Made by a program: the position numbers and the translations under genes. Shown piece by piece: positions 15,612-35,103 of a stretch of DNA of 35,175 bases. Origin of the DNA: Curtobacterium sp. A7_M15 (GTDB taxonomy: Bacteria > Actinomycetota > Actinomycetes > Actinomycetales > Microbacteriaceae); the NCBI RefSeq assembly GCF_030705415.1, contig NZ_JAUZED010000029.1, positions 1-35,175 on the forward strand. The letters run 5' to 3'. The first letter of the stretch is position 1, and every line of letters begins with the position of its first letter. A model generated the notes under the pieces. It was given only the letters and a program-made list of their open reading frames with translations. It did no database searches and was not told the origin of the DNA.

Positions 15612-17292
15612 ACCCGACCTCGACTCCACCGACACCTCGGCGGACCCGCAGCGACCGTCGGACCACGTCGACGGGGCGGGCCCGGAGCCGGTCGCGAGCG
15701 GAGCAGGGGACTCCGGTGTCAACCAGCCGAAGCTCGGCATCGTCGGGTACCTCCGCTTCTTCTGGCGGCAGCTCACGAGCATGCGGACGGCCCTGTTCCT
15801 CCTCATGCTGCTGGCACTCGCGGCCATCCCGGGATCCCTGGTCCCGCAGCGGACGGCCGACCCGAACGGCGTCGTCCAGTACAAGGCCGACCACCCGCAG
15901 CTGTTCCCGGTCCTCGACAAGCTGCAGGTCTTCGACACCTACACCTCGGTGTGGTTCTCGGCGATCTACCTGCTGCTCTTCGTCTCCCTGATCGGCTGCA
16001 TCGTCCCGCGCACCAAGCACCACTGGCAGGCGCTGCGCACCCGACCGCCGAAGACCCCGGTCCGCCTGTCGCGGCTGGCCGGCTACCGGTCGGTCCCCGT
16101 CGACGGGGACGGCATCACCCCCGACCACGCCGTGACCCGGGCCATGGCGATCCTCAAGCGGTCCGGTTACCGCGTCGAACGGTTCGGTGACTCGGTGAGC
16201 GCCGAGCGCGGCTACCTGCGCGAGACCGGCAACCTGGTCTTCCACGCGGCGCTCGTGGGCGTCCTGCTCGCGGTCGGCGTCGGCGGCGGGTTCGGGTACA
16301 CCGGTCAGCGCCTGCTCGTCGAGGGGCAGACGTTCTCGAACGTGCTCGGGTCCTACGACTCGTTCAACCCCGGTCGCTGGTTCCGGCAGACCGACCTGCA
16401 GGGCTACAACCTGACGCTCGACAAGTTCGTCACGAAGTACGAGGAGCGCAACCTCGACGCCCTCGGCCAGGCGCTCGACTACTCCGCGACCGTGACCAGT
16501 CAGGAGAAGGGCGGCGCGAAGAAGACCAGCCGCCTCGGCGTCAACGACCCGCTGAGCGTCGGTGGCACGAACGTCTACCTCCTCGGCAACGGCTACGCGA
16601 TGAGCGTGACGGTGCGCGACGGAGACGGGAACGTGGCGTTCAAGGACACCGTTCCGTTCCTGCCCGAGGACGCGAACTACACGTCCACCGGCGTCATCAA
16701 GGTGCCCGACGCGGTACCGGACCAGCTCGGCATGGTCGGGTTCTTCTACCCGACCGCGTCGAAGCTCTCCACCGGCGCGTACGCGAGCGCCTACCCGGAC
16801 GACCAGAACCCGCTGCTGACCCTGCAGGTCTACACGGGTGACCTCGGGCTCGACGACGGCGTCCCGCAGAGCGTCTACACGCTCGACACCAGCGGCCTGC
16901 AGCAGATCGCGGGCCGGCAGTCGAAGACGGCGAGCGTCGAGCTGAAGCCCGGGCAGACGAAGACGCTGCCGGACGGCGCCGGTTCGATCACGTTCGACGG
17001 CGTGAAGCGCTACGTCTCGCTCGACGTCCACCACGACCCCTCGCAGCTGTGGGTCGGTGGTTTCGCCGTGCTCTCCGTCCTCGGGCTCCTCACGTCGCTG
17101 TTCGTCCCGCGCCGACGCGTGTGGGTCAAGGTCGTGCCGCGACGCGACGGCGACGCCGAGCCCGGCTTCGACCTCGAGTACGCGGGCCTCGCTCGCGGCG
17201 AGGACCCGAACCTCGAACGAGCCGTGGCGGACATCGCCCAGCGCCACACGTCGGACCTCGGAGTTAGGATTCAAGTCCGAGCGGGCCAGTAG
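15595..17292 (+). CDS. resB: Cytochrome c biogenesis protein ResB (3' end replaced by prophage sequence)
   Basis: A 565-residue ResB. An N-terminal extension (1-45) is followed by TM helices near 60-80, 120-140 and 212-230, a large extracytoplasmic domain, and a last helix near 483-500. With CcsB it exports heme and attaches it to apocytochrome c. The start is a TTG inside ccdA. The prophage has joined at codons GGA GTT AGG ATT, so the protein now ends GVRIQVRAGQ. Joining the attL left flank to the attR right flank gives GVRIPQ and a stop, with that stop overlapping the ccsB GTG. Function is probably intact because only the extreme cytosolic C-terminus changes. Confidence 0.95.
   Translation: MSPQSEPDLDSTDTSADPQRPSDHVDGAGPEPVASGAGDSGVNQPKLGIVGYLRFFWRQLTSMRTALFLLMLLALAAIPGSLVPQRTADPNGVVQYKADHPQLFPVLDKLQVFDTYTSVWFSAIYLLLFVSLIGCIVPRTKHHWQALRTRPPKTPVRLSRLAGYRSVPVDGDGITPDHAVTRAMAILKRSGYRVERFGDSVSAERGYLRETGNLVFHAALVGVLLAVGVGGGFGYTGQRLLVEGQTFSNVLGSYDSFNPGRWFRQTDLQGYNLTLDKFVTKYEERNLDALGQALDYSATVTSQEKGGAKKTSRLGVNDPLSVGGTNVYLLGNGYAMSVTVRDGDGNVAFKDTVPFLPEDANYTSTGVIKVPDAVPDQLGMVGFFYPTASKLSTGAYASAYPDDQNPLLTLQVYTGDLGLDDGVPQSVYTLDTSGLQQIAGRQSKTASVELKPGQTKTLPDGAGSITFDGVKRYVSLDVHHDPSQLWVGGFAVLSVLGLLTSLFVPRRRVWVKVVPRRDGDAEPGFDLEYAGLARGEDPNLERAVADIAQRHTSDLGVRIQVRAGQ
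17260..17272. repeat. attL core
   Basis: GGAGTTAGGATTC, identical to 34091-34103; flanking bases differ on both sides (c/a here, g/c at attR). It lies within the last codons of resB. Confidence 0.88.
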
Positions 17293-17303
17293 GCACGCGG
17301 TTT

Positions 17304-18413
17304 CTAGGCGGTATCAGCGCCCGGAGTCCGCGAGGAGTCCGCAGGAGCGAGCGAGGACGTCATCAGATCCGCAGCAGCGGCCCGGGTGACGTCCTCTGCC
17401 GTTCCCCACAAATGGCTGTACGTGTTGAGCGTGGTTGACGCCTTCGCGTGACCGAGCGCCCGCTGCACAGTCACCACGTCCGCGCCGTGCGCGATCAGGC
17501 CCGACGCGTAGTAGTGCCGCAGATCGTGCGGCGTGAATCCGCTGACGCCCGCCCGCTCGAGCGTCTTGTTCCAGTGCCACCGCAGCGAGTCAGGATTCGG
17601 CGGGCGACCTGGCAGCAGCCACCCCTCGTCACCGTGCACCCCGACTTTCGCGACGTGCTCCGACAGCATCGTCACGAGCGCGTCCGGCAGGTACACGACC
17701 CGCTCGCTGCCATGCTTCGGTGGAATCACCGCGAGCGTCCCGGGCTCCTTCTGCACCTGCCGTGACACCTGCAACGTCCGCTTCAGGAACGCGATGTCGC
17801 CCCGCTGCACGCCGGCGACCTCACCGATGCGGAGTCCAGCGAACGCCGCCAACGCGACGAACGGCCGGAACCACGGCTCGGCCGCGTTCACGGTCGCGCC
17901 CACCTGCTCCGGTGTGGGTATGACCATGGCAGCCTCAGCGCGGCGGGTGCGGGGGAGGCGTACGCCGACTGACGGGTCGAGCGTGAGCACGCGGTCCGCC
18001 ATCGCAGCGCGGATGATCGTCCGGATGTTCCCGACGCGTGTCTTGATCGTCCCGGGCGCGAGGCGCGACTGCATGTCCTTCACCCACGCCTCGACATGCG
18101 AGCGCCGCAGCTTCCCGACCTCGACGTTCGCGAACGTGCAGTCGTTCATCGTGATGTTGTACGAGTCGCGAGTCGACGTCACCCAGATCTGACGCGGCGA
18201 CCAGTCATCGTAGAAGCCCCGCAGAGTCGTCTTCCGCTCGGTCGGTGACGTCCACGTGCCCTGCTGCCGCTTCGAGAGCTCGTCGACGATCCACGCCTCG
18301 CCAGCCGCCTTCGTCCGGAAATGCTTGGCATGCTCGCGACGCTTCCCGTCGTCATCGAGAAAGTCGTACCGTGCGCGCCACTGCCCGCTCGGTCGGCGCT
18401 TAACGCTCGACAT
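17304..18413 (-). CDS. int: Tyrosine-recombinase integrase
   Basis: A 369-residue integrase. An N-terminal arm-binding domain (about 1-60) is followed by a core-binding domain (about 65-150) and a catalytic domain with all expected residues: Arg195 (GLRIGE), Lys233 (PPKHGSERVV), His296 and Arg299 (HDLRH), His322 (LGHAKAS) and the nucleophile Tyr332 (NTYSHL). Its stop lies 32 bp from the att core and its last codons overlap a pair of putative arm sites. The ATG overlaps the repressor stop by one base (TGATG), so int and repressor are co-transcribed. It reads towards resB, with which it converges. Confidence 0.96.
   Translation of the reverse strand: MSSVKRRPSGQWRARYDFLDDDGKRREHAKHFRTKAAGEAWIVDELSKRQQGTWTSPTERKTTLRGFYDDWSPRQIWVTSTRDSYNITMNDCTFANVEVGKLRRSHVEAWVKDMQSRLAPGTIKTRVGNIRTIIRAAMADRVLTLDPSVGVRLPRTRRAEAAMVIPTPEQVGATVNAAEPWFRPFVALAAFAGLRIGEVAGVQRGDIAFLKRTLQVSRQVQKEPGTLAVIPPKHGSERVVYLPDALVTMLSEHVAKVGVHGDEGWLLPGRPPNPDSLRWHWNKTLERAGVSGFTPHDLRHYYASGLIAHGADVVTVQRALGHAKASTTLNTYSHLWGTAEDVTRAAAADLMTSSLAPADSSRTPGADTA
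17324..17342 (+). promoter_or_regulatory. Integrase arm-type sites, attL side
   Basis: Two direct copies of GAGTCCGC (17324-17331 and 17335-17342) spaced 11 bp, inside the 3' end of int and 52 bp from the core. An identically spaced pair stands at 33969-33987 on the attR side. Paired sites flanking a core are expected for the N-terminal domain of a tyrosine integrase. Confidence 0.65.
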
Positions 18414-18880
18414 CAGACTTCCTCTCCTGCACCGACCACGCCTTCCATCGCCTTAGTGAGTTCGTTCGCACGCTCGGTCAGGTTGCTCAAAGCGACGAGG
18501 AGGTCCGGGTCGAGTGAATCCGAATCGCCTTCCGCTTCAAGCTTGCGGAACTCCCTCTCGAGATCACGCTTGTCCTTCATCACGGACCAGAAGTCGGCGC
18601 GGGTTCGCTCGAGGTTGGCCGCCGCTCGATCGATCAGCATGCGAAGTCGCGTCGACCCCTCGCTGCTGAGCAAGGCTTCGAAGTTAGGGATCTTCAAGAG
18701 CTGCATGAGGAGCACGGACTCGCTGGCGCGCAGCGGCCTCTCTCCGCGCTCGATCGAGGCGACAGTGAGGTGTGTCCACTTCAAGCCGAAGTCGCGCACC
18801 CGATTGGCGAGTTCGCGTTGCGACATGTCGCCCCGGTACCTGGCGACGTTCTTGCCGATGCGTTCATCAATCTTGGCCAC
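18413..18880 (-). CDS. XRE-family phage repressor (probable immunity repressor)
   Basis: A 155-residue protein from the GTG at 18880. An XRE/Cro-type HTH at about 15-60 reads MSQRELANRVRDFGLKWTHLTVASIERGERPLRASE. The C-terminal half is a long charged helical region (LRMLIDRAAANLERTRADFWSVMKDKRDLEREFRKLEAE), with no LexA-type peptidase domain, so induction is probably not RecA-mediated self-cleavage. A TACCGT hexamer ends 6 nt before the GTG, a leaderless layout; a longer reading from 18949 is possible but its N-terminus looks non-coding. Co-transcribed with int. Confidence 0.85.
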   Translation of the reverse strand: MAKIDERIGKNVARYRGDMSQRELANRVRDFGLKWTHLTVASIERGERPLRASESVLLMQLLKIPNFEALLSSEGSTRLRMLIDRAAANLERTRADFWSVMKDKRDLEREFRKLEAEGDSDSLDPDLLVALSNLTERANELTKAMEGVVGAGEEV

Positions 18881-19000
18881 CAGAGGACGGTATCGGGAAA
18901 ACACCACGAGTGGTAGTCCATGGTTGCCAAAGTGGGTCGGGTGGTGCACTATGGAAACCAGCGGTGGTCATCCCAGGCCACCACGGACTGAAGGGCAACG
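18881..19000. promoter_or_regulatory. Prophage divergent control region with repeated GTGGT/ACCAC sites
   Basis: The 120 bp between repressor and xis hold the repressor -10 (TACCGT, 18892-18887, minus) and a weak rightward promoter (TTGCCA 18924-18929, 17 bp, CACTAT 18947-18952). Five ACCAC/GTGGT words occur: a perfect palindrome ACCAC-GA-GTGGT at 18903-18914, single copies at 18941 and 18964, and an inverted copy at 18980-18984. One copy lies inside the rightward promoter. These are the best candidates for repressor operators. Confidence 0.55.
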
Positions 19001-19213
19001 ATGACCAACTTCACGTACGAGCCGGGCGTTCGTCTCCGGAGGCTTCTCACGCTCCCCGAGACGGCGGAGCTTCTGCGGAAGACCGAAAGCCAGCTCCGCT
19101 GGATGCTCAAGGTCAAGTCCGCACCACCCCACGCGAAGGTCGGAGGTCGCATCGTTTTCGACGCCGACGAAGTGGCTGCCTGGATCGACCAGCAGTTCGC
19201 GGTGGCCTCGTGA
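19001..19213 (+). CDS. xis: Excisionase-like HTH protein
   Basis: A 70-residue protein consisting of one excisionase-type winged helix: LLTLPETAELLRKTESQLRWMLKVKSAPPHAKVGGRIVFDADEVAAWID. It is the first rightward gene after the repressor, the usual place of a directionality factor in small actinophages, though an early regulator (Cro-like role) is also possible. A GAAGGG stretch lies about 6 nt before the ATG. Confidence 0.8.
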   Translation: MTNFTYEPGVRLRRLLTLPETAELLRKTESQLRWMLKVKSAPPHAKVGGRIVFDADEVAAWIDQQFAVAS

Positions 19214-19293
19214 CCACCATCACCAAGAACGCCCCCGACACGAGCGGCAACTCGGTCGAGGGCAACGATCACAACATCCCAGCTGGAGATCTC

Positions 19294-19677
19294 ATGAACA
19301 AGGAAGACCTTACTGTGCTCACCGTAGACCGCGCCACCGACATTGACTGGAACGAGCTCCCGAAGGACGTCGAAGTGCACGTCCCCTGCACCATCCCCGG
19401 GTGCAAGAACTACCAGGGCGAACACGTCTGGTCGTGGGGCGACTCGTTCCACCACTGCGCATTCGAGTACTGGGCCGACATCCAAGCGCAGGTGTCCGTC
19501 GACTACTACGAAGACGAGACGGGCGACGTCAACAGCCTCGAGGCAAACACGTGGTCGGTCAACGGCTTCCTCGCGGACGACGACAAGCCGCTCACGGTCG
19601 ACAGGGTCACCACGTGGATGTCGAACTACAACAGCGCAGTCTGCCTCGCAGCCGAGCTCAACGGTGAGGCCCGCTGA
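19294..19677 (+). CDS. Phage hypothetical protein with possible zinc site
   Basis: A 127-residue acidic protein (from ATG 19294, GGAG 6 nt upstream). The frame also allows a GTG at 19210 that overlaps the xis stop by 4 bp and would add 28 low-complexity residues. A Cys/His cluster, CTIPGCKNYQGEH followed by FHHC, could bind zinc; the arrangement is reminiscent of small DUF6907-like proteins of actinophages, but I am not sure. It is in a run of three genes each overlapping the next by one base (TGATG). Confidence 0.7.
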   Translation: MNKEDLTVLTVDRATDIDWNELPKDVEVHVPCTIPGCKNYQGEHVWSWGDSFHHCAFEYWADIQAQVSVDYYEDETGDVNSLEANTWSVNGFLADDDKPLTVDRVTTWMSNYNSAVCLAAELNGEAR

Positions 19678-19919
19678 TGGCCGCGCACAAGACGATCGCG
19701 GACCTCGTCCACGCCGACAAGTGGGACGACGGCCCAGTTGAGGTGTGGGTCGACCTCGAGCGCGCGAAGGAGTTCTTCACGTCGGATGGGATCGTCGTAG
19801 AGATGCCCCCTGCCCAGGCGCTCGAGTTGAGCGAAGCGCTCGCGGACAAGGCGCGCCTCGCGCTCGCTGGCAAGTACGAGCACCACTACGAGGGTGAGAA
19901 CGGCGAGGAGATCGACTGA
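19677..19919 (+). CDS. Phage hypothetical protein
   Basis: An 80-residue acidic protein (VHADKWDDGPVEVWVDLERAKEF, then PPAQALELSEALADKARLALAGKYEHHYEGE). No recognised domain. The start overlaps the previous stop and the stop overlaps the next start (TGATG), placing it in the early operon. Confidence 0.7.
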   Translation: MAAHKTIADLVHADKWDDGPVEVWVDLERAKEFFTSDGIVVEMPPAQALELSEALADKARLALAGKYEHHYEGENGEEID

Positions 19920-20302
19920 TGGCAACCAAGTACGAAGTCCTCGCGTCCCTCGTCAAGCGCGACCACGAAGCGTGGGCGTGGCAGAACCAGGACGAAGGTG
20001 ACGGCAACCACCACGTCATCATCGGCATCCTGCGCATCATGCACGACTACGCCCTGCCGCCGGCACCCAACCAGTCCTGGGACTGGGAAGACGTGGTCGA
20101 GGAGATCTACGACCGCATCGCCGAAGCGTTCTCCGTGGAGCGCTTCGACGACCAGCCGACAGAGCCGACGAACCGTGACCTGCTCGAGGTCATCGAAGAC
20201 ACGCTCGACATCGCAAAGAAGAGCACGTCGCTGGTTCTCAACGACCACCCGACCAAGGGCGACGACATGCCGCCCGAGCTCGACATCCCCGACCAGCACT
20301 GA
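19919..20302 (+). CDS. Phage hypothetical acidic protein
   Basis: A 127-residue acidic protein with several Trp and His residues near the start (RDHEAWAWQNQDEGDGNHHVIIGI) and a long Asp/Glu-rich C-terminal half. No known motif. It is the last of three coupled genes and is followed by a strong hairpin. Confidence 0.7.
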   Translation: MATKYEVLASLVKRDHEAWAWQNQDEGDGNHHVIIGILRIMHDYALPPAPNQSWDWEDVVEEIYDRIAEAFSVERFDDQPTEPTNRDLLEVIEDTLDIAKKSTSLVLNDHPTKGDDMPPELDIPDQH

Positions 20303-20310
20303 CCCACCCG

Positions 20311-20341
20311 CGAGGGGTGTCGGTACTACCGACACCCCTCG
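20311..20341. terminator. Strong hairpin ending the first early transcript
   Basis: CGAGGGGTGTCGGT (20311-20324) pairs with ACCGACACCCCTCG (20328-20341), a 14-bp stem with a 3-nt loop and no U-tract. It lies in the 59-bp gap between two rightward genes and could end or attenuate the early transcript, or bind a regulator. Confidence 0.65.
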
Positions 20342-20361
20342 CCTCCACCCGAAGGAGACGC

Positions 20362-20967
20362 ATGAGCTGGACGAAGCTCGGCGACGAGTGGTGTCAGATG
20401 ACGTTGCTCGAAGACCTCAGCCACGAGGACAGGTGGCACTACCTCTGCATGATCCAGTTCTGCTCACGCACGGACAAGCGTGACGGGATCATGCGAGGAG
20501 TCGACGCGCGTCGACAGTCCGACCACAGCGACCCAGCGACCGCGCTCGCCCACCTCGCAGACGCTGGACTCATTGCCATCGAACCCGGCGACAAGTACCG
20601 CATCGTCCGCATCGAAGAGGACGACCACCTGCCCTCCGAGTCCGTGCGCAAGCGGACCGAGAACAACAAGAACCGTCAACGTCGCAAGCGCGCACACGAC
20701 AAGGGCGACCACTCCTTGTGTCGAGACGACGCCGACTGTCACGCATCTGTCACGCGTGACGTCGGGACGGGACGGGACGGGACGGGCCGGGACAAGACCA
20801 AGAACCACACGCTCGTTCCAGCAACATCAACGTGGCCGGTCGTCCACATCAGCAAGGCCCCGGTGTGCGACGTGTGCTTGGACCCGATGCCGATGGATGC
20901 GGTGCTTACGATCTGTGAGGTTGACGACCCTGCCCATGAGGACGCTCGGATGGCGTCGGCATCGTGA
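20362..20967 (+). CDS. Replisome-organiser-like phage protein with zinc motifs
   Basis: A 201-residue protein. The N-terminal 80 residues (MSWTKLGDEWCQMTLLEDLS, HLADAGLIAIEPGDKYRI) look like the winged-helix start of actinophage replication-organiser proteins. A basic segment NNKNRQRRKRAHDKGDHSLC is followed by CRDD-type cysteines and a CDVC pair near the C-terminus, so zinc binding is likely. GAAGGAG precedes the ATG. A GGGAC pentamer run encodes a GTGRD repeat in the middle. It is the only replication-type gene seen. The end overlaps a small minus-strand gene. Confidence 0.65.
   Translation: MSWTKLGDEWCQMTLLEDLSHEDRWHYLCMIQFCSRTDKRDGIMRGVDARRQSDHSDPATALAHLADAGLIAIEPGDKYRIVRIEEDDHLPSESVRKRTENNKNRQRRKRAHDKGDHSLCRDDADCHASVTRDVGTGRDGTGRDKTKNHTLVPATSTWPVVHISKAPVCDVCLDPMPMDAVLTICEVDDPAHEDARMASAS
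20762..20793 (+). repeat. Tandem pentanucleotide (GGGAC) repeat in a coding region
   Basis: About six GGGAC units, one interrupted as GGGCC, encoding repeated Gly-Thr-Gly-Arg-Asp. A pentamer is not a multiple of three, so slippage by one unit would shift the frame and remove the C-terminal zinc motif. Confidence 0.8.
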
Positions 20968-21052
20968 CCGTTTCACTGGGCCAGTCGAGTGAGCGCAGGA
21001 ACTCGTCGCAGAACCGCGCGCACTCTTCGTCCGTCATCTCGTGCCAGCTCAT
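20906..21052 (-). CDS. Small leaderless minus-strand phage protein (putative)
   Basis: 48 residues from ATG 21052: MSWHEMTDEECARFCDEFLR, then SLDWPSETV and a Pro/Arg-rich tail. TACCGT ends exactly 7 nt before the ATG; the same hexamer precedes the repressor gene. The first 30 codons have typical host-like codon use. It runs against the surrounding rightward genes and overlaps the end of the replication-type gene by 62 bp. If real, it would be expressed in the lysogen. A longer version could start near 21115. Confidence 0.4.
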   Translation of the reverse strand: MSWHEMTDEECARFCDEFLRSLDWPSETVTMPTPSERPHGQGRQPHRS

Positions 21053-21100
21053 CTGCACGACGGTAGATCGCGGCCCGAGCCGGCCTTTCAGGATTGTCCG

Positions 21101-21385
21101 ATGAGCGCGCATCATCGCACCGCTGAGTGGTCGAAGGTGCAGCGGACCATGCGCCCCATCATCGCCGCCACCCTGCCGGCGCGGTGTGTCAACTGCCCCC
21201 ACCTCGTGATGCCTGATCAGGCGTGGGAGATCGGGCATATCGTCGACGCCGCCTTGGGTGGTACAAATGATGGTACAAACCTCGGTCCGGCTCACGTGCG
21301 TTGTAACCGATCAGCCGGCGGCAAGGCGGGACGAGCCAAGCAGATCACGAAGAGCAAGAGCGACAGGAGACTCCTCCCATGGTGA
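21101..21385 (+). CDS. HNH endonuclease
   Basis: A 94-residue HNH nuclease. CVNC pairs with a later CNR to hold zinc, and the catalytic core is EIGHIVDAALGGTNDGTNLGPAHVRCNRSAGGK. HNH proteins beside TerL are common in HK97-like phages, where they help the terminase make or resolve cos ends. This position supports cos packaging. The start ATG gives MSAHHRTAEW. The stop overlaps the next small gene by 7 bp. Confidence 0.9.
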   Translation: MSAHHRTAEWSKVQRTMRPIIAATLPARCVNCPHLVMPDQAWEIGHIVDAALGGTNDGTNLGPAHVRCNRSAGGKAGRAKQITKSKSDRRLLPW

Positions 21386-21534
21386 CCTTCACCGAGACAG
21401 GCCAGACCACGCAGGCAGTGACGTGGGACGAGGGCGTGTACGACCAGCCCGATCGCGTGCTGCTCTCATGCGACGAGTGTGGTGCGACTGTGCCGTCGAC
21501 GAGGACCGACCTGCACGCAGCGAGTCACGCGTGA
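21379..21534 (+). CDS. Small C2H2-type zinc-finger protein
   Basis: 51 residues with a compact finger: CDEC, 11 residues, then HAASH (C-x2-C-x11-H-x3-H). The start overlaps HNH by 7 bp and the stop overlaps the TerL GTG by 4 bp (GTGA), so it is clearly part of the packaging operon. It stands where a small terminase often lies, but is much too short for a normal TerS. Function unknown; DNA or terminase binding is possible. Confidence 0.7.
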   Translation: MVTFTETGQTTQAVTWDEGVYDQPDRVLLSCDECGATVPSTRTDLHAASHA

Positions 21535-23069: not shown

Positions 23070-23071
23070 AT

Positions 23072-23116
23072 TTGTACCAACCGTTGTAGCGCTATTGGTA
23101 CAACGGTTGGTACAAT
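23072..23116 (+). promoter_or_regulatory. 17-bp inverted repeat with -10 element ahead of the structural genes
   Basis: TTGTACCAACCGTTGTA (23072-23088) is repeated exactly in inverted form at 23099-23115, with a 10-nt spacer. The right arm ends in TACAAT (23111-23116), 6 nt before the portal GTG, which fits a leaderless promoter. The element fills nearly the whole gap between TerL and portal. It could be an operator over a late promoter, or a hairpin that ends the upstream message. Confidence 0.7.
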
Positions 23117-23122
23117 GTCGAT

Positions 23123-25824: not shown

Positions 25825-25834
25825 CTGCAACACC

Positions 25835-25867
25835 GGCAGGGGCGGGCACCAGACGCCCGCCCCTGCC
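25835..25867 (+). terminator. Hairpin after the capsid gene
   Basis: Perfect 13-bp stem GGCAGGGGCGGGC / GCCCGCCCCTGCC with a 7-nt loop (25848-25854). No U-tract. Probably a partial terminator that lets capsid protein be made in excess over connector proteins. Confidence 0.75.
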
Positions 25868-25888
25868 GCCTAACCGAAAGGAGGCGAC

Positions 25889-26880: not shown

Positions 26881-26884
26881 CACC

Positions 26885-27310: not shown

Positions 27311-27313
27311 CGG

Positions 27314-27829
27314 ATGGCGGGCAGCGGTCGGATCTCGGTCCTCGTCTCTGACGAGCTCCGAACGCTGCTGTCCGCCCTCCGCGAGGTTCCGAAGGACGTG
27401 CAGGCGCAGGTCCGGAAGTACACGAAGGCAGACGCCCAGCCGATCTGGCAGGCAGAGGTGCGCTCGCGAGTCCAGACCACCGTGGACGAGCGCGTCTTCG
27501 GCAAGACCGCCCGAGTCCGGGTGTCGAACCAGAACGTCAACCTCGAGGCCGCTCGGATCGGCAAGAGCCTGTCAGGCGGAGCAAAGCCGTCGCAGGTGGC
27601 AGCCGGATACGAGTTCGGCCGCAACGGCGATCCCCGCACGACCTACATGACCACCAGTCGCAAGGGGAAGCGGTACGCCGCGACCCGACACACGAAGCGC
27701 CAGCTTCCCACCCGAAACACGAACGGCCGCGTGGTCTTCCCCTCGACCCGCTCCTCGATCCCCAGGTTCGCGTCCCTGTGGATCCAGACCGCGGCCCGCA
27801 CCCTGTACGACGCCTTCGACCGAAAGTAG
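27314..27829 (+). CDS. Basic tail-assembly/connector protein (HK97 gp10-like candidate)
   Basis: 171 residues, basic. The first part (LRTLLSALREVPKDVQAQVRK, WQAEVRSRVQ) and C-terminal helix (SLWIQTAARTLYDAFDRK) resemble HK97 gp10-like proteins. It lies after the tail-tube gene, not before it as is more usual, and occupies the place normally held by the frameshifted tail chaperones. It starts 4 nt after the previous stop. Confidence 0.5.
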   Translation: MAGSGRISVLVSDELRTLLSALREVPKDVQAQVRKYTKADAQPIWQAEVRSRVQTTVDERVFGKTARVRVSNQNVNLEAARIGKSLSGGAKPSQVAAGYEFGRNGDPRTTYMTTSRKGKRYAATRHTKRQLPTRNTNGRVVFPSTRSSIPRFASLWIQTAARTLYDAFDRK

Positions 27830-27836
27830 GTGACCC

Positions 27837-29603
27837 ATGGCCGGCGGCTTCTCCGTCAGCATCGGCTCTGACACGCGCCTGTTCGAGCAGGGCGTGAAGG
27901 TCGGCGTCATCGCGCCCGTCGAGGATGCCCAGGACGCGCTGCAGGACCTCGCGAACACCAGCACCTCTCGGCTCGACCGCGGGCTCGACGACCTCAGCAA
28001 GGCCGGAAAGGACGTCGGCGACGACATTCGGGACGGCTCGAAGAAGGCCGAGCGTGCGCTCGATGACCTCGGCGACGCGGGGAAGGACGCCGGCAACGAC
28101 CTCGAGGCCGGACTCAAGGACGCGCAGTCCGAAACGTCGAAGACGACGGCCGACTACAAGGAGATGGCCGAGAAGATCCGCGCCGAGACGGCGAAGATCA
28201 AGGCGCAGTCGAAGGAGGACTTCAACGGCGCTGGCGGGGCGACCGGCGAGTTCAAGGAAGAAGCCCTCTCCAACTTCTCCGAGGTCACGTCCTCATTCAC
28301 CGGCGACATGCAGTCGATCACGGACCTGGCACAGGGCACCTTCGGCGGCCTCGCGTCGTTGGGCGGTCCGGCCTCGCTCGTCTTCGGCGGCATCGCGGTC
28401 GCGGTTGGCCTGATCGGTCAGGCGTTCGCGACGTCCGGCGAAGAATCGGACGAGTTCAAGGAAAAGATCCAGGACCTTGCTCAGACGAAGCTCGAGGATC
28501 TGTTCGGCCAGTACGAGGACAGCGGTGACGACCTCGCACGCGGCCTGCGGAAGTGGGCCACTGACGCAGACTCGTTCGGTGGTTCCCTGACCGACCTGCA
28601 GAAGAACGCGCGCAAGGCGGGCCTCGGCGTCGGCGAACTGACCGCGGCGATCGGATCCCAGTCCGTGTCGAAGATGCGGGCTCTGCGGACGGAGGTCGAC
28701 AAGCAGATCGACTCGCTGCAGAAGCAGGCGGCGACCCTGTCCGACGGCACGGCGAAGGGTCGGATTGCTGCCAAGGGTGCCCAGGAGCAGGCTGACGCGG
28801 CTCGTGAGGTGAGGAAGCAGCTCGATCAGAACCTCAAGGTGAACGACGCCTACGAGGAGAGCGTGCGAGCGGTCGCGAAGGCACAGGGACAGACCGTCAA
28901 GCAGTACCTCGCGACCGTCGATGCTCAGGCGAAGGCTGAGGAGGCGAACCAGAAGCTCGAGGACTCGATGAAGTCCCTCGCCGAGCAGAGCGGCGAGTCC
29001 ACCGCCGAGCTCGTTGACAACTCGTCCCTCGGCGCGAACAACTACATCGCTGGCATGGAGAAGCGCCAAGCCGCCGACGACCAGTACTACTCGAATCTGC
29101 AGGCCGTCGGGAAGGCCGTCCCAGACAGCGTCTACCAGTACCTGCAGGGCCAGGGTGAGGCGTTCAGCCAGGAGCTCGCGACGTACCTCTCCGCGACGCC
29201 CGAGCAGCAGGCCCGCATCCTCGACGGTTGGAAGAAGGCCGCGGGCTCCGGCACCGACATCGACGGCCCGACGGTCAAGGCGAAGGGCGACACGTCCGAC
29301 GTCGACCGCAAGACCGCCGAGAAGGGCAAGGAGAAGAAGGCCGGTCCGACATCGAAGCTGCAGCCCGACACGAAGGACCTCGACGCGAAGGTCCGCGAGA
29401 AGGGCGGGCAGAAGTCCAAGGGGCCGACGATGGCGTTCCAGTCGGATACGTCCGACGTTGACCGCGCGATCTCGTCCCTCAAGAAGAAGACGTTCAGCGG
29501 CCCGACCGCCGTGTTCCAGGTCGACCGGTCGTCGGTCAACAACACGATCGCGAACCTGCGGAACACGACGATCACGGTCAAGGTGAAGGCGGTGGACGGC
29601 TGA
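27837..29603 (+). CDS. Tape measure protein
   Basis: 588 residues. Helical, coiled-coil-rich N-terminus (SKAGKDVGDDIRDGSKKAER, LEAGLKDAQSETSKTTADYK), a hydrophobic patch near 185-200 (GPASLVFGGIAVAVGLIGQAF) and long heptad regions. The C-terminal part carries four 26-residue repeats starting GPT at residues 477, 503, 529 and 555, with the consensus GPT-x5-D-T-x-D-V-D. At roughly 1.5 angstrom per residue the tail would be near 90 nm. Short compared with most siphophage tape measures. Confidence 0.93.
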   Translation: MAGGFSVSIGSDTRLFEQGVKVGVIAPVEDAQDALQDLANTSTSRLDRGLDDLSKAGKDVGDDIRDGSKKAERALDDLGDAGKDAGNDLEAGLKDAQSETSKTTADYKEMAEKIRAETAKIKAQSKEDFNGAGGATGEFKEEALSNFSEVTSSFTGDMQSITDLAQGTFGGLASLGGPASLVFGGIAVAVGLIGQAFATSGEESDEFKEKIQDLAQTKLEDLFGQYEDSGDDLARGLRKWATDADSFGGSLTDLQKNARKAGLGVGELTAAIGSQSVSKMRALRTEVDKQIDSLQKQAATLSDGTAKGRIAAKGAQEQADAAREVRKQLDQNLKVNDAYEESVRAVAKAQGQTVKQYLATVDAQAKAEEANQKLEDSMKSLAEQSGESTAELVDNSSLGANNYIAGMEKRQAADDQYYSNLQAVGKAVPDSVYQYLQGQGEAFSQELATYLSATPEQQARILDGWKKAAGSGTDIDGPTVKAKGDTSDVDRKTAEKGKEKKAGPTSKLQPDTKDLDAKVREKGGQKSKGPTMAFQSDTSDVDRAISSLKKKTFSGPTAVFQVDRSSVNNTIANLRNTTITVKVKAVDG

Positions 29604-29974
29604 TGTCGGCCTCATTCTCAGTCGGGTCGCGTGCGATCCTCCCGTTCGCGGTCACGGACCAGGCGTTCGAGCGCGCGGTGAACACCATCTTCAACCCGGT
29701 CGTCGGTGGCGGCGTCGTCGCGACCGCGTTCCCGGCGTCGCTTCGCAGCGGGTCGATGACGGCCGTCTTCACCGACCTCGCAGCTGCGCTCGACTTCGAC
29801 AACATGCTCGCCGGCACCGCGCCGATCACCTGGTCGGACACGTCGACCTCGCTGACGATCCGGTTCCTCGCCGACCAGACGATCAGCCTCACGCAGAGCG
29901 ACGACGAGATCACCCTGTCGGATGGCACGGACGTCTACGTGTGGGGCGTCTCGTTCAGCTACCAGGAGGTGTGA
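29603..29974 (+). CDS. Minor tail protein (distal-tail-like candidate)
   Basis: 123 residues of mostly beta structure (MTAVFTDLAAALDFDNMLAG, LTIRFLADQTISLT, YVWGVSFSYQEV). It directly follows the tape measure with a one-base overlap (TGATG), so it is the likely distal tail or tail-tip protein. No motif beyond that. Confidence 0.6.
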   Translation: MSASFSVGSRAILPFAVTDQAFERAVNTIFNPVVGGGVVATAFPASLRSGSMTAVFTDLAAALDFDNMLAGTAPITWSDTSTSLTIRFLADQTISLTQSDDEITLSDGTDVYVWGVSFSYQEV

Positions 29975-29977
29975 CCG

Positions 29978-31768
29978 ATGGCCGTCGTGCAGAACATCGT
30001 CATCACCGTGCAACTGGTGAGCCCGACCGGCTCGACCGTCGCAACCCTGAACCCCACCGAGCTCTCCTGGACGCAGGACGAGTCCGGATCGCCGATGTTC
30101 ACCGGCCGGACCACCGTCGCCATGCCGACCGCGGCGCAGTTCGCGATGCTCCGACCCGGCGCTGGCTACTTCCTCCGCGTCGGCGGCTGGCTCGCCGAGC
30201 AGGACACGCAGACGTACCTGTTCAAGATCACCGACCGCACCCGCACGCCGCTCGGCCTCGTGGAGCTCCAGTTCGGTGGCCCGGAGATCGACCTGCAGGC
30301 GTACACGCCGACCGCTGTCGATCGCGGGCCGTGGGCGCAGCAGTGGGCCGTCGACGCCATCATCGCCTACGTCCTCGACGCCGTGTGGGGCACCCGGTGG
30401 GGCAAGTACTCGTACGGCGACAAGACGTTCGGTGAGTCCGACCCGAGCGTCATAGTCCCGTTCCCGACGTACGCGCCGGCAACGAACCTCATCGCGAACG
30501 GCGGCTTCGAGAGTGGCACGACGACCGGCTGGACCGCGATGGCGTGCACCGCGTCGGCAGTGTCAGGGAGCTGGACCTCGAGCGGTGCCTACGCCATCCG
30601 CCTGTTTCCCAACTCCAACAGCGCCAACTCGTACGTCTACACGACGGTCAACGTCGAGCCGAACACGACCTACACCGTCTCGGCGACAATCCGAGTCGGC
30701 CAACCCATGACCGGCACGGTCGCAGACACGGCACGCCGCATCCTGATCACCGGGTCGGTGAACGGACAGGGCTACGAGCTCGCACGTAGCGCGCAGGGGC
30801 CGAGCAGCACGAACGGCACGCAGCGGCTCTCCCGCACGTTCACGACGCCGGCCATGCTCGACAGCAACCAGGTCGCCATCCGCCTCTACCACGGGCAGAC
30901 ATCGACCGGATTCGTCGGCATCCTCTGGGACGACGTCCTCATGGTCGAGGGCGACGGCCTCGACACGGACAGTGTTACCCCGATCCCGTACTTCGATGGC
31001 GACACCGTGGATGGCACGGCCGGCTACAACTACGACTGGCAGGGCAGCGCGAAGGCGAGCACGGCGACTCGCACCCCGATCATCGACCGCAGCCCCGACA
31101 TGCTCACCTGGTCGCCCGGACAGTCGGCGTGGGACTTCCTGCAGCCAATCCTGCAGTCGGTCGGCCTGCACCTCTGGTGCGATAGCTACGACATCGACTT
31201 CAGGCCCGGTTCGGTCAGCACGCGGGTGTTCTGGGCCACCAACCAGTTCGGCTTCAAGTCCACGGCGCGGCGGACCCTGCAGGGCTTCAACCTGCTCGAC
31301 ATCAGCCAGGTCGACTCGTGGTCCGCGGAGTTCAGCGACGGCACGCCGATGTACGCCGACCAGGTGATCCTCCACTACACGTGGAACGACTCCCTCAACC
31401 AGCCTCGCGAGGCGTACGACGTGTACCCGGCGACCGGCAAGAAGCCGTACTTCATGGAGCTCGAGGACACGCCCTTCGCTGGCAAGGGGCGCGCACAGGG
31501 CATCTACAACCGGATCAGCTCCCGCGCCACGATGCTGCAGGGCATCACCTGGTTCGAGCGCGGCACGTTCCCGGGCCAGCAGATCGCCGTCACGGCCGAC
31601 GCGATCGGCGGATCGGCAGTCGGGTACGTCGAGGCGACCACGCACGATCCGTTCCGCGGAACGACCGAGTTCCGCACGAAGCAGACCATCGCCTACACGT
31701 CGAAGTCGTGGTTCGCCGCGACCGGCACGTGGGCCTCTCAGACCGGCACCTGGGCCGACGAAGCATAG
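29978..31768 (+). CDS. Minor tail protein with carbohydrate-binding insert
   Basis: 596 residues. A tail-hub-like N-terminal region (about 1-160) and a C-terminal region (about 375-590; LTWSPGQSAWDFLQPILQ, ITWFERGTFPGQQ) flank an insert at about 168-345. The insert has the CBM-like opening NLIANGGFESGTTTGW and the later YHGQTSTGFVGILWDDVLMVEG, typical of jelly-roll carbohydrate-binding modules. It is probably the tail-tip protein that contacts cell-wall sugars. Confidence 0.82.
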   Translation: MAVVQNIVITVQLVSPTGSTVATLNPTELSWTQDESGSPMFTGRTTVAMPTAAQFAMLRPGAGYFLRVGGWLAEQDTQTYLFKITDRTRTPLGLVELQFGGPEIDLQAYTPTAVDRGPWAQQWAVDAIIAYVLDAVWGTRWGKYSYGDKTFGESDPSVIVPFPTYAPATNLIANGGFESGTTTGWTAMACTASAVSGSWTSSGAYAIRLFPNSNSANSYVYTTVNVEPNTTYTVSATIRVGQPMTGTVADTARRILITGSVNGQGYELARSAQGPSSTNGTQRLSRTFTTPAMLDSNQVAIRLYHGQTSTGFVGILWDDVLMVEGDGLDTDSVTPIPYFDGDTVDGTAGYNYDWQGSAKASTATRTPIIDRSPDMLTWSPGQSAWDFLQPILQSVGLHLWCDSYDIDFRPGSVSTRVFWATNQFGFKSTARRTLQGFNLLDISQVDSWSAEFSDGTPMYADQVILHYTWNDSLNQPREAYDVYPATGKKPYFMELEDTPFAGKGRAQGIYNRISSRATMLQGITWFERGTFPGQQIAVTADAIGGSAVGYVEATTHDPFRGTTEFRTKQTIAYTSKSWFAATGTWASQTGTWADEA

Positions 31769-31777
31769 GAGACACTC

Positions 31778-32332
31778 GTGGCAAACGGAGACATTGCAAG
31801 CGCTCGCGGGTGGACCACTTACGCGTCCACCCAGCAGCGGTCGCAGGGCTGGGACAACGACAACTACGTCCTCGACCGCGCCGCCGAGCAGGCGAACCGC
31901 CTCGACGTCGTGGAGGCGGCGGTCAACCAGCCGATCTTCAAGGTCGGCCGGTCCACTGTCACCGCCGACCTCGACGACGGGCAGATCTACACCGTCGTCG
32001 GCAACTGGTTCGCCGCCCCGACGATCAACACCGGATTCACCCGATGGAACGCCGGCCAACTGACCGTCGCGAAGGCCGGCATCTACCGGCTTACCGCGCA
32101 CGTCAACTTCATCAACGACCGCGACACCGTCGAGGTCTACGTGATGCAGAACGGCAACTACGTCGTGAAGCAGACGAACGCCGGCCGCGGCGCGACGGGG
32201 ACCGAGCTCGTTCGCCTCGCAGCCGGTGACGTGCTCGCCATGCGCGTCCTCTGCATCGGTGCGGGCTTCCACAACCTGATCAACACCAACCCCTACGACA
32301 TGTCGTTCTCGGCCGAGTGGGTGCGCGCATGA
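31778..32332 (+). CDS. Receptor-binding / tail fibre candidate (jelly-roll)
   Basis: 184 residues. The C-terminal 130 residues have a repeated beta pattern resembling C1q/TNF-like domains: NTGFTRWNAGQLTVAKAGIY, RLTAHVNFINDRDTVEV, LRLAAGDVLAMRV. The N-terminal piece (WDNDNYVLDRAAEQANRLDVVE) is a short helix that may attach to the tail. GTG start with AGGAGA upstream. Stop overlaps the next start (ATGA). Confidence 0.65.
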   Translation: MANGDIASARGWTTYASTQQRSQGWDNDNYVLDRAAEQANRLDVVEAAVNQPIFKVGRSTVTADLDDGQIYTVVGNWFAAPTINTGFTRWNAGQLTVAKAGIYRLTAHVNFINDRDTVEVYVMQNGNYVVKQTNAGRGATGTELVRLAAGDVLAMRVLCIGAGFHNLINTNPYDMSFSAEWVRA

Positions 32333-32682
32333 TCGTCGCCGCGACCGCACCCAACCCAGCGGAGGTGTCGAACGACCACTTCGGCATCATCGTCGGCGGC
32401 ATCGTCGCAGTGCTCGTTGCCCTCTGCACGCTCGGCGGCATCGTCCTGCCGCTCCTGATCAAGGCGCGCAACGACGCGGCCGTGGCGCGTGACCAGACCG
32501 CGAACAACCACGAAAGCAACCTCCGAGACGACATGGACGGCAAGCACGAGGACCAGGCGGTCCGCATCGACTGGATCGTCGCCGCGGTCACCTACCTCCT
32601 CGATCGCGACCAGACCGGCGGCGCTGACGCACGGAAGCGCGCCGAGCTCATGAACACCCGACCCGAAAGCAGGCACCCGTGA
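32329..32682 (+). CDS. Single-span membrane protein, lysis cassette (DUF2746-like)
   Basis: 117 residues. One TM helix (about 20-45: GIIVGGIVAVLVALCTLGGIVLPLL) is followed by a charged coiled-coil tail (ARNDAAVARDQTANNHESNLRDD). Such proteins sit next to holins in actinophages and may tune lysis. ATGA overlap upstream and GTGA overlap downstream place it in the lysis operon. Confidence 0.72.
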   Translation: MIVAATAPNPAEVSNDHFGIIVGGIVAVLVALCTLGGIVLPLLIKARNDAAVARDQTANNHESNLRDDMDGKHEDQAVRIDWIVAAVTYLLDRDQTGGADARKRAELMNTRPESRHP

Positions 32683-32936
32683 ACATCACTCCAGCAGTCA
32701 AGGACGCCTTCGAGCGAGCCGTGTCCACCGCCGCACAGACCGCGATCGGCGTCATCGGCATCGACGCCGTCACAGTGCTCGACGTCGACTGGCAGACGGT
32801 TGCCGGAGCAGCAGCCCTCGCGGCCATCGCGAGCGTCCTCAAGACGCTCGCAGCCCTCGGGACGACCGGAACAACGTCGCTCGCGATCCGGAGCCCAGAG
32901 AAGGTCAAGCAGCGGGGAGAGCACGTTGCCGACTAA
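32679..32936 (+). CDS. Holin candidate (r1t-like)
   Basis: 85 residues with two hydrophobic stretches (AAQTAIGVIGIDAVTVL and TVAGAAALAAIASVLKTLAAL) and a basic tail, as in phage r1t-type holins that open the membrane for the endolysin. The GTG start overlaps the previous gene by 4 bp; the endolysin start lies inside its end. Confidence 0.78.
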   Translation: MNITPAVKDAFERAVSTAAQTAIGVIGIDAVTVLDVDWQTVAGAAALAAIASVLKTLAALGTTGTTSLAIRSPEKVKQRGEHVAD

Positions 32937-33555
32937 CGGACTCCTCAACACGTCGGCCCTCGTCACTGGCCTCGGCTTCCGACCGATCGAAGACGGCGCG
33001 GGCGGTCTGCTCCGTCCCGACGTCGCGCGGCAGCACAACCTCATGGCCGCGCAGTTCGAGCGTGACCTCGGCGAGCCGCTGCTCTACTCCGAGGGCTACC
33101 GGTCGCTCGCGAGGCAGAACCTCAAGTGGTCGCAGTACCAGCACGGCGGGACGCTTGCCGCTTTCCCCGGCACGTCCACGCACGGCCTCGCCGTCACGAT
33201 CGACTACGCGTCCGGCGTCGGCTACCCAACCACCGAGGCGTCCCGCTGGATGGACGAGCACGGACCCGCATACGGCTTCATCGCTGACGTCCCGTCCGAG
33301 CGCTGGCACCGTCACTTCGCTGTCACACCCACCATCACCGCAGTGCCGCACACCGCGGCACTGCACGACGAACAGGAAGAACCCGACATGATCATCCTCA
33401 GCAACGGCAAGGGGCAGGGCCTGCTCACCGGCAAGACCCTCACCGGCATCCCGTCCACTGCCGACGTGCAGGCGCTCGTCAAGGCAGGCGTGCCCTCTGC
33501 GACCGTCTCGCGGGAGTTCTACGCGAAGCTGCAGCGCGAGCTCGGCAGCGCCTAG
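32926..33555 (+). CDS. Endolysin, M15 (VanY-type) D-Ala-D-Ala carboxypeptidase-like
   Basis: 209 residues from the TTG at 32926 (GGGGAGA upstream). The metallopeptidase domain (about 35-131) shows the zinc residues His86 and Asp93 (STHGLAVTID) and the pair Glu125/His128 (SERWHRHF), with GYRSLARQ near 57-65. The C-terminal 70 residues may bind cell wall. An ATG start would lose the catalytic region's upstream helix, so the TTG is preferred. Stop shares CTAG with the convergent gene. Confidence 0.88.
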   Translation: MPTNGLLNTSALVTGLGFRPIEDGAGGLLRPDVARQHNLMAAQFERDLGEPLLYSEGYRSLARQNLKWSQYQHGGTLAAFPGTSTHGLAVTIDYASGVGYPTTEASRWMDEHGPAYGFIADVPSERWHRHFAVTPTITAVPHTAALHDEQEEPDMIILSNGKGQGLLTGKTLTGIPSTADVQALVKAGVPSATVSREFYAKLQRELGSA

Positions 33556-33785
33556 CGAATGCCGTAGACGCGCCGGTCGTCGCGTTCCTGCTGCAGTTCC
33601 TGCGACGACTTCGGCGCGCGGCCCTCAGCTTCGGCGGCGTCTTGCTCGTCGAGCCAGTCCTTCAACACCTCGGCGTTCTCGGTGATGCGGTTCACGTGCT
33701 GGTTCCACGTGATCGCGAGCCCGCCCTTCGGGGTGTGACTCACGGCCGATGCCGCCGCGATGAGTGCTGCCTGACGATTATTCAT
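33552..33785 (-). CDS. Prophage accessory protein (moron candidate), minus strand
   Basis: 77 residues: MNNRQAALIAAASAVSHTPK, a central WNQHVNRITENAEVLKDWLDE helix and a charged tail. No known domain. ATG 33785 follows TATGCT by 6 nt, so it has its own leaderless promoter and runs against the late genes, the usual pattern of a gene expressed in the lysogen. Its stop overlaps the endolysin stop in CTAG. Confidence 0.65.
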   Translation of the reverse strand: MNNRQAALIAAASAVSHTPKGGLAITWNQHVNRITENAEVLKDWLDEQDAAEAEGRAPKSSQELQQERDDRRVYGIR

Positions 33786-33791
33786 GACGAG

Positions 33792-33799
33792 AGCATACT
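33792..33799. promoter_or_regulatory. Overlapping divergent -10 elements
   Basis: AGCATACT reads TATGCT on the minus strand (33797-33792, 6 nt before the 33785 ATG) and CATACT on the plus strand (33794-33799, 6 nt before the 33806 ATG). The two promoters cannot be occupied at once. Confidence 0.55.
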
Positions 33800-33805
33800 T
33801 TTCCC

Positions 33806-33967
33806 ATGAAGATTGACTGTCCCACCCCAGGATGCAAAGCGGAGGCCGAAGTGACTTTCCCCGACCCGCGGGATCGCCGCCTGTCACTAGGTCCGCGGTA
33901 CACGTGCGCAAACGGTCATCGTGGCCCGGCTCGCATCACGCCGCCGAACGACCCGCGGCTGCCCTGA
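33806..33967 (+). CDS. Small zinc-ribbon-like accessory protein
   Basis: 53 residues, with CPTPGC near the start and CANGH near residue 34, a pattern compatible with a zinc ribbon. The remainder is basic and Pro-rich. ATG 33806 lies 6 nt after CATACT. It is divergent from the minus-strand accessory gene and sits next to attR. Function unknown; its independent promoter suggests expression in the lysogen. Confidence 0.55.
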   Translation: MKIDCPTPGCKAEAEVTFPDPRDRRLSLGPRYTCANGHRGPARITPPNDPRLP

Positions 33968-34090
33968 CGAGTCCGCAGCGAGTCCGCAAAAGCCCCACAA
34001 GTGGCCTCATGTCAGCAACACGTGACACCATGAAGAGCCGCGCAGAATCAACGATCACACCGCCCCACAGCACCTGGCACCCATGCTGGG
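33968..34090. other. attP left-arm DNA / non-coding stretch before ccsB
   Basis: About 120 bp without a convincing gene. It holds the arm-site pair at the start and phage-derived sequence up to the core. Its right end CTGGGG (34086-34091) can pair with the host CCCCAG (34103-34108) across the core, so the junction can form a hairpin that exists only in the lysogen. Confidence 0.55.
33969..33987 (+). promoter_or_regulatory. Integrase arm-type sites, attR side
   Basis: Two direct copies of GAGTCCGC (33969-33976 and 33980-33987) spaced 11 bp, the same word, orientation and spacing as at 17324-17342; 103 bp from the core. Confidence 0.65.
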
Positions 34091-34103
34091 GGAGTTAGGA
34101 TTC
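34091..34103. repeat. attR core
   Basis: GGAGTTAGGATTC, identical to 17260-17272. It contains TAGGAT (34096-34101), 6 nt before the ccsB GTG, and a GGAG 13 nt before it. Confidence 0.88.
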
Positions 34104-34107
34104 CCCA

Positions 34108-35103
34108 GTGAACGACATGACGACGAACCTCGCGACCTACTCGGTCGTGCTGACGTACTCCGCGATGGCGGTCTACGTCATCGCGTTCATCGCGTTCGCC
34201 CTCGACATGGCCAAGCGCGCCGGCAACGTCGCTGCTGCATCCGGCTCCGCCGCCGCACCGACGACCGCCGCGGAACGCGCGGTGGCGACCGTCCAGGGCG
34301 GCACCGTCGTCCTCGAGAAGGTGGCGGCCGACGACGACCGCGCGGGTCGTCGCGGCACGAAGTTCGAGCGCGTCGGCATGGCCATGACGATCCTCGCGCT
34401 CGTGCTGCACGTCGCCTCCGTCGTCCTGCGCGGCATCGCAGCCGACCGTGTGCCGTGGGGCAACATGTTCGAGTTCTCGCTGACCGGCACGGCGCTGATC
34501 ACCCTGATCTTCCTGCTCGTCCAGTTCTGGCAGAACCTGAAGTTCCTCGGCGTCTTCATCACCGGGCTGACGATCATCCTGCTCGGCATCGCGACCGTGA
34601 ACTACTGGGTGCCCGTCGTGCCGCTGCAGCCCGCGCTGCAGTCCTACTGGCTCGTCATCCACGTCTTCGTGGCGATCGCGGGGACGGGCTTCTTCGCCCT
34701 GGGCGCCGGACTCGCCGTGGCGCAGCTCGTGCAGACCTACCGCCAGGGCCGCACCGCGTCCGGCAAGCTCCGTTTCATGGAGACGCTGCCGGACGCCGAC
34801 CGACTCGAGGTCCTCACCTACCGCGTCCTCCTCGTCGGCTTCGTCCTCTGGACCTTCACGCTCATCGCCGGCGCGATCTGGGCCGAGCGCGCCTGGGGCC
34901 GGTACTGGGGGTGGGACACGAAGGAGGTCTGGACCTTCATCATCTGGGTGGTCTACGCCGGGTACATCCACGCGCGTGCGACCCGCGGGTGGCGTGGCGC
35001 GCGGTCGTCCTGGCTCGCCCTCATCGGCTTCGCCGCGGTGATGTTCAACTTCTCCGTCGTGAACGTGTTCTTCAAGGGCCTGCACAGCTACTCCGGACTG
35101 TGA
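34108..35103 (+). CDS. ccsB: Cytochrome c biogenesis protein CcsB/ResC (heme transporter), separated from resB by the prophage
   Basis: 331 residues with about eight hydrophobic segments. The Trp-rich heme-handling motif WGRYWGWDTKEVWTFIIW is near residue 270, and conserved His residues lie in LHVASV, VIHVF and YIHARAT. CcsB and ResB form the System II heme-export and cytochrome c synthetase complex. I chose GTG 34108, which overlaps the reconstructed resB stop; ATG 34117 is an alternative. The region upstream is now phage DNA, so expression in the lysogen must rely on a local promoter or read-through. Confidence 0.94.
   Translation: MNDMTTNLATYSVVLTYSAMAVYVIAFIAFALDMAKRAGNVAAASGSAAAPTTAAERAVATVQGGTVVLEKVAADDDRAGRRGTKFERVGMAMTILALVLHVASVVLRGIAADRVPWGNMFEFSLTGTALITLIFLLVQFWQNLKFLGVFITGLTIILLGIATVNYWVPVVPLQPALQSYWLVIHVFVAIAGTGFFALGAGLAVAQLVQTYRQGRTASGKLRFMETLPDADRLEVLTYRVLLVGFVLWTFTLIAGAIWAERAWGRYWGWDTKEVWTFIIWVVYAGYIHARATRGWRGARSSWLALIGFAAVMFNFSVVNVFFKGLHSYSGL

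Follow-up and report, generated by a model that had tools for sequence, protein, structure and literature searches.

The window analysed here, a 35,175-nucleotide stretch of contig NZ_JAUZED010000029.1 from the 231-contig genome assembly of Curtobacterium sp. A7_M15, contains a 16.8-kb prophage between resB and ccsB, two cytochrome c maturation genes. From its junctions and from the corresponding site in relatives, we hypothesize that the prophage occupies an attachment site in the 3′ end of resB that spares the core promoter of a leaderless ccsB, so that CcsB is made at a basal level in the lysogen; we give this reading a probability of about two in three. Under this hypothesis, a tyrosine integrase would insert the prophage at the 3′ end of resB through a recombination core that contains the −10 hexamer TAGGAT, ccsB would be transcribed from a leaderless promoter with its start at its own GTG codon, and recombination would duplicate the −10, leaving one copy at each end of the prophage. 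At the right junction (attR) ccsB would retain its −10, its predicted start point and its start codon, with phage DNA farther upstream; at the left junction (attL) resB would stay in frame and gain a short phage-coded tail. Read-through from ccdA and resB into ccsB would be cut and the ccsB core promoter spared, and the lysogen would be expected to go on making CcsB at a basal level. Both junctions, the empty sites of relatives, the conserved TANNNT with its spacing and the repeated use of the site are directly observed.

The prophage is bounded by a perfect 13-bp direct repeat, GGAGTTAGGATTC, at 17260–17272 (attL core, plus strand) and 34091–34103 (attR core, plus strand), with phage genes inside it, as the first-pass annotation of this DNA had reported. 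The two copies are 16,831 bp apart and are the only ones on the plus strand of the whole window, with none on the minus strand. That annotation ended the element at 34108, which is the first base of the ccsB GTG codon; the right-hand copy of the repeat ends earlier, at 34103. As proof on its own we rejected the repeat, since chance repeats of this kind are common: the window holds 116 maximal direct repeats of at least 13 bp. The length of the repeat being unremarkable, relatives had to decide whether the junction is real. Outside the two copies, the left flank carries resB and a DsbD_TM (ccdA-like) gene, and the right flank carries ccsB. The lysogen form of resB (15595–17292, plus strand) matches PF05140 over residues 63–543 of 565; it is host-coded up to 17272, and its final residues and stop codon, which are phage-coded, lie outside the ResB domain match. 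ccsB (ResC; 34108–35103, plus strand) matches Cytochrom_C_asm (PF01578) and starts with GTG, its predicted transcription start falling on the same base. These assignments, and that of the integrase to PF00589, agree with the earlier ones, as does the outcome of rejoining the flanks in silico: resB then ends in SDLGVRIPQ, its TGA stop overlapping the ccsB GTG (GTGA), and in the lysogen it ends in GVRIQVRAGQ.

By name, the best relatives of the window ccsB belong to Curtobacterium. ccsB was matched in 64 of 66 genomes in our genus set, the two genomes without a match being fragmented; with the window excluded, this leaves 64 ccsB loci from 63 Curtobacterium-genus genomes, one of which has two loci. 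The uninterrupted junction that the first-pass annotation had predicted is found in most of them: 60 of the 64 loci have the end of resB within 100 nt of where ccsB starts, an element separates the genes in two (genomes G015 and G001, a lysogen count drawn from one genome per species), and in another two (G043 and G044) the genes are 912 nt apart. The sequence TTAGGAT of the core is present in 61 of the 64 loci, two of which are the attR sites of the lysogens G015 and G001. The junction reads GTGA in 57 of these 61 and GTGG in four; for the empty sites alone the counts are 55/59, bearing out the predicted overlap, and 4/59. The three loci that have no core are those of G043 and G044 (TACCAT in its place) and L131, the second copy in G017. 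In G043 and G044, which are prophage-free here, two small frames, one with MGHLTYGAMRLGMEIEDRTLAHLQ, split resB from ccsB. The second copy of resB-ccsB in C. pusillum ATCC 19096 (L131, on G017:C64; also L014) is on a 37-kb contig; its junction contains neither the core nor the −10, has AGGAG before an ATG, and is shared by L013, from another assembly. Given the adjacency of resB and ccsB in the genus, the three other elements bounded at the same place and the paired GAGTCCGC repeats at the ends, we take the junction, on this comparison of sequences, to be real.

The hexamer TAGGAT lies inside the repeat (34096–34101 at attR, plus strand), 6 nt upstream of the ccsB start, and the conservation of TANNNT before ccsB starts makes it the candidate −10 element of a leaderless promoter. 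TANNNT precedes a ccsB start by 6 nt, or in 4 loci by 7 nt, across 63 of the 64 genus loci (0.11 expected) and all 47 of a further group, L038–L084 (0.05 expected), which forms part of the best 80 of 587 relatives and bears almost entirely Microbacteriaceae names; for both counts a start was accepted if it was in frame and no more than about 30 nt from the aligned one, and the loci are related, not independent. In an overlapping named set the count is 31 of 33, the two misses, L013 and L014, having the L131 type of junction. The hexamers vary (TAGGAT, TAGGCT, TAAGAT, TACCAT and others) and the sequence before ccsB differs between genera; the position is nearly constant. The clearest natural control for a −10 that belongs to ccsB itself is provided by G043 and G044, in which resB has a different end and stands apart, and ccsB keeps TACCAT-N6-GTG. 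A constraint on the DNA is indicated by the codons that the core supplies to resB: GTT-AGG is fixed in 61 of 61 TAGGAT loci while the residues that follow vary, and both codons are rare, GTT making up 1.0% of valine codons and AGG 2.9% of arginine codons in a sample of 220 called genes of G029.

Across 1.2 Mb of G029, the frequency of TANNNT upstream of 3162 candidate starts peaks at distances of 12 nt (79 starts) and 13 nt (62 starts), against 0.0004–0.0005 for other codons, and 140 of 674 called genes (about 21%) carry it at that spacing; these figures are approximate, since genes were called by a simple rule of length and GC3 and a start anywhere within the first 80 codons was accepted. A clear −35 was not seen in G029, where matches of at least 4/6 occur in 20 of 141 upstream regions versus 13.7 of 141 in shuffled sequences. 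A TANNNT-type signal about 12 bp before starts has been described for actinobacteria (PMC3160421), and dominance of the −10 without a −35 motif for a mycobacterium (PMC3898074). With its conserved TANNNT about 12 nt upstream of the start, ccsB carries the sequence mark of a leaderless gene and appears to have a leaderless promoter of its own, the −10 of which lies inside the recombination core. A reading in which the conserved TANNNT lacks promoter function and the site simply overlaps it, lysogen ccsB being expressed weakly or through phage read-through, is very improbable: an integrase family that appears to use gene 3′ ends generally would fit such an overlap, but 110 of the 111 loci that make up the two main sets, related as they are, hold the element at a near-fixed place before the start.

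Four elements were found at this one site, in the window, in G015, in G001 and on an IMG/VR contig, and in all four attR sites GAGTTAGGAT is invariant and the 6-nt length of the spacer and the GTG are kept (alignment judged by eye), whereas the sequence farther out, from 4–5 nt before the −10, is replaced. Because they lie inside or just beside the core, the native −10, its spacing and the start codon are restored by recombination. At attL, resB is open in each of the four, with the tails GVRIQVRAGQ (window, stop following), GVRMQVRAEQESSGI, GVRIEVRGE and GVRMQVRADQ. From these arrangements we infer an active −10, transcription from the GTG and a level of ccsB expression little changed by integration.

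The first-pass annotation had proposed instead that loss of coupling could lower ccsB, in the manner of comK. In full, such a regulatory switch would have integration uncouple ccsB from resB in translation and transcription, CcsB and cytochrome c assembly would fall, and excision would restore them, as for comK prophages or for SpyCI in mutS-mutL. In its favour, ccsB is severed from its upstream operon, coupling in non-lysogens is suggested by the GTGA overlap that 55 of the 59 empty sites with the core show, and a shortage of cytochrome c could be survivable, as the genome has a cytochrome bd oxidase gene. We nevertheless find no support for the proposal and regard a switch as quite improbable: none of the four elements has lost the −10, its spacing or the start, ccsB is intact and has no second match in the genome, a two-domain cytochrome c frame is retained, and the two prophage-free genomes with resB and ccsB apart keep TANNNT before ccsB. 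The conserved TANNNT weakens, in particular, an off-switch through lost coupling. Given that ccsB is the sole match and that the two-domain cytochrome c frame is retained alongside the bd oxidase gene, CcsB is probably still needed and made in the lysogen.

The same annotation had allowed that ccsB might come under a phage-side promoter. Phage DNA does now lie immediately upstream of the ccsB −10 region, and a promoter swap of the HK022-torS type, in which phage sequence upstream of attR would drive ccsB at a changed, perhaps higher, level, has a precedent (PMC6814406). All four elements have CTGGCA, a 4/6 match to TTGACA, 16 bp before TAGGAT, whereas the best host-side hexamer at the 59 empty sites scores 3/6 in 51, 2/6 in 5 and 4/6 in 3. 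Matches of at least 4/6 are, however, not rare by chance, as the shuffles of G029 upstream regions show; a GGCAC block at this position is found as well in the arm of the related element of G058, which is inserted in another gene, and so may serve integration; and a consensus scan of 33400–34300 gave no sigma-70-type match. Moreover, the putative native promoter beside the site keeps its −10, spacing and start codon at 4/4 attR sites, only sequence farther upstream being replaced. A swap is unlikely, if less so than a switch. We also dropped CTGGCA as a phage-borne −35 selected for ccsB, since 4/6 matches are common in shuffles and the block partly recurs in the G058 arm.

Several points weigh against a spared leaderless promoter and are gathered here. 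The GTGA overlap suggests some resB-ccsB coupling in non-lysogens, and read-through from ccdA-resB into ccsB is almost certainly cut by integration. The upstream sequence replaced at attR can be important even where there is no −35 consensus. A short leader is possible in the window, where ccsB has an in-frame ATG 9 nt past its GTG; several relatives do not have this ATG. One junction type (L131, which is L014, in G017, and L013) is without the −10. Leaderless mRNAs of M. tuberculosis are almost absent among respiration genes (PMC3898074), a mild objection, and in the HK022-torS case the predicted GTG start gave no fusion activity (PMC6814406).

A second copy of the hexamer stands at attL (17265–17270, plus strand) together with the host upstream sequence, and its function would be that of a −10 by analogy of sequence. 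It is conceivable, though distinctly doubtful, that the core is a live promoter element used by the element family: the −10 of a leaderless gene would be rebuilt at both ends, keeping ccsB on at attR, and the attL copy, with its full native upstream sequence, would fire antisense to the integrase and may keep the integrase quiet in the lysogen.

The attL core is surrounded by an inverted repeat, TCGGACCT...AAGTCCGA (17251–17280, strand not assigned), whose arms are candidate core-type integrase sites and are both invariant in 4/4 attL sites (alignment judged by eye). Two GAGTCCGC repeats, at 17324 and 17335 (17324–17342, plus strand), and two on the attR side, at 33969 and 33980 (33969–33987, plus strand), are candidate arm-type sites. 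The tyrosine integrase gene itself (17304–18413, minus strand) matches Phage_integrase (PF00589, E=4.4e-21) and phrog_1, integrase. With this domain beside one end, the same core sequence at each end and an intact site in relatives, the element has the sequence features of a tyrosine-integrase prophage. Of 11 other integrase loci (47–69% identity) whose flanks were read, nine seem, as judged by eye, to lie at gene ends and two (L089 and L093) are ambiguous; the nine represent only about four different genes, one ending in VEFRFNN occurring four times. The related element in G058 has a 14-base repeat where a gene ends with the reading FVIKGEYP, and the arm on its other side can be aligned with those of the ccsB site, GGCAC block included (five arms, by eye). 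In a tree of 18 integrase rows, the four ccsB-site sequences and L179 form a five-row group (support 95/94); the label count on this tree comes to two changes, since L179, whose attachment site is off the contig, is unlabelled. The integrase family thus appears, from these alignments, to target gene 3′ ends, and the resB 3′ end here holds the putative ccsB −10.

Beside the attR core, a 22-residue frame, MKSRAESTITPPHSTWHPCWGS, at 34030–34098 in the attR arm ends with a TAG inside the core; close versions with the same TAG stop occur in the G015 and IMG/VR elements and a shorter one in G001. The frame is probably arm sequence and possibly a leader. The window attR is also near-palindromic at 34086–34108 (CTGGGG...CCCCAG), a feature that is not kept in G001 and may be due to chance.

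The IMG/VR contig shows both junctions, attL (L178) and attR (L245, located by DNA search), and its element resembles that of the window in the structural genes (73–93% identity from the terminase through a 588-residue gene, and 66% in one small gene). An attR-arm pattern had zero matches in viral_contigs, being too strict, as one fixed base differs in the IMG/VR record. An attL pattern allowing up to 2 mismatches had four in 398 family genomes, a set with few other members of the genus and without G015 and G001: the window and three with two mismatches each. The 14.9-kb G015 element (L140:2273–17170) and the 9.1-kb G001 element (L150:2902–11988) were compared with 20 phage proteins of the window. 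The integrase is the sole match in the former, and in the latter the integrase and two others (34–37%, about 100 residues) match. At the DNA level, both elements share with the window the integrase end and part of the other attachment arm (about 117 bp in G015 and about 113 bp in G001), and G015 also shares a 334-bp stretch (72%). Matches in the G015 element are to tape-measure, scaffold, lipase, replication-initiation and excisionase types; no large terminase, portal or major head protein was found among the 10 of its open reading frames scanned with PHROGs, and a small-terminase-type match is weak. Those in the G001 element are to an integrase, a replication initiator, a capsid protein and, weakly, a helix-turn-helix, with no terminase, portal or tail protein found among the 10 of its frames scanned with PHROGs; a candidate reading is that it is a capsid-carrying satellite or a remnant. 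Since the cargo of G015 and G001 is largely unrelated to the window phage, the integration module appears to travel with differing cargo.

In the window, all the recognised structural and lysis genes are directed rightward, opposite to the integrase: the terminase large subunit (21258–23069), portal (23123–24181) and major head protein (24181–25824), assigned with PHROGs, the major tail protein (26885–27310; phrog_4574), an r1t-type holin (32679–32936; PF16945) and a VanY-type peptidase, likely the endolysin (32800–33555; PF02557, E=8.3e-7), whose true start is probably inside the open reading frame. The GC fraction, in 1-kb steps, is 0.63–0.69 over 18001–34000 versus 0.68–0.76 left of 17000. 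We judge the element best read, from this gene content, as a small siphophage-type prophage integrated by its tyrosine integrase at the resB 3′ end. Between the lysis genes and attR, a small cysteine-bearing rightward frame (MKIDCPTPGC..., 33806–33967) is directed toward ccsB, and no terminator match was found after it.

If the hypothesis holds, it gives a rule for phage insertion within an operon that does not silence the next gene, a core that includes the −10 carrying the core promoter along, and a bacterium rich in leaderless genes is the setting for such a rule. It would also urge caution in actinobacteria, where an interrupted operon alone does not justify inferring a regulatory switch. 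The prediction can be tested on the four elements, of which two carry cargo that is for the most part unrelated to that of the window phage.

Among known phages and prophages, the closest in kind are small. By tblastn the terminase has as its top matches Microbacterium phage PensacolaC28 (16.7 kb) and 15–16-kb Arthrobacter phages, at 32–37% identity and with no record reaching 80% coverage; these phages are like the window prophage in genome size, and the terminase resemblance is distant. Curtobacterium prophage groups 13 and 15 (15–18 kb; PMC9862828) share its genus, size and siphophage-like gene set, the comparison being by size and GC only; a text search of the main text of that article did not find 'integration site', 'cytochrome' or 'UCD-AKU'. 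Among the papers listed by searches of an open-licence library, we recognised no report of an attachment core lying within a promoter. SpyCI islands of Streptococcus pyogenes, which lie between mutS and mutL (PMC4689407), integrate at the 5′ end of mutL and block its transcription, their excision being tied to growth (PMC3430984). Here, too, a mobile element splits an operon between two genes; unlike mutL, however, ccsB would keep a core promoter, and no regulated excision is known. HK022 is found at the torS-torT boundary of E. coli, which holds a prophage in about 5% of complete genomes (PMC6814406), and resembles the present case in lying at the boundary of two respiratory-control genes and in parting the downstream gene from its usual upstream DNA. 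One native torS start is near a predicted GTG start, a native torS promoter is lost at least in part, and the sole torS transcript comes from a mapped phage promoter (PMC6814406). In the Curtobacterium lysogen, by contrast, attR restores the native −10 together with its spacing and the start codon, and what sets it apart from the known cases is that the predicted −10 sits inside the attachment core.

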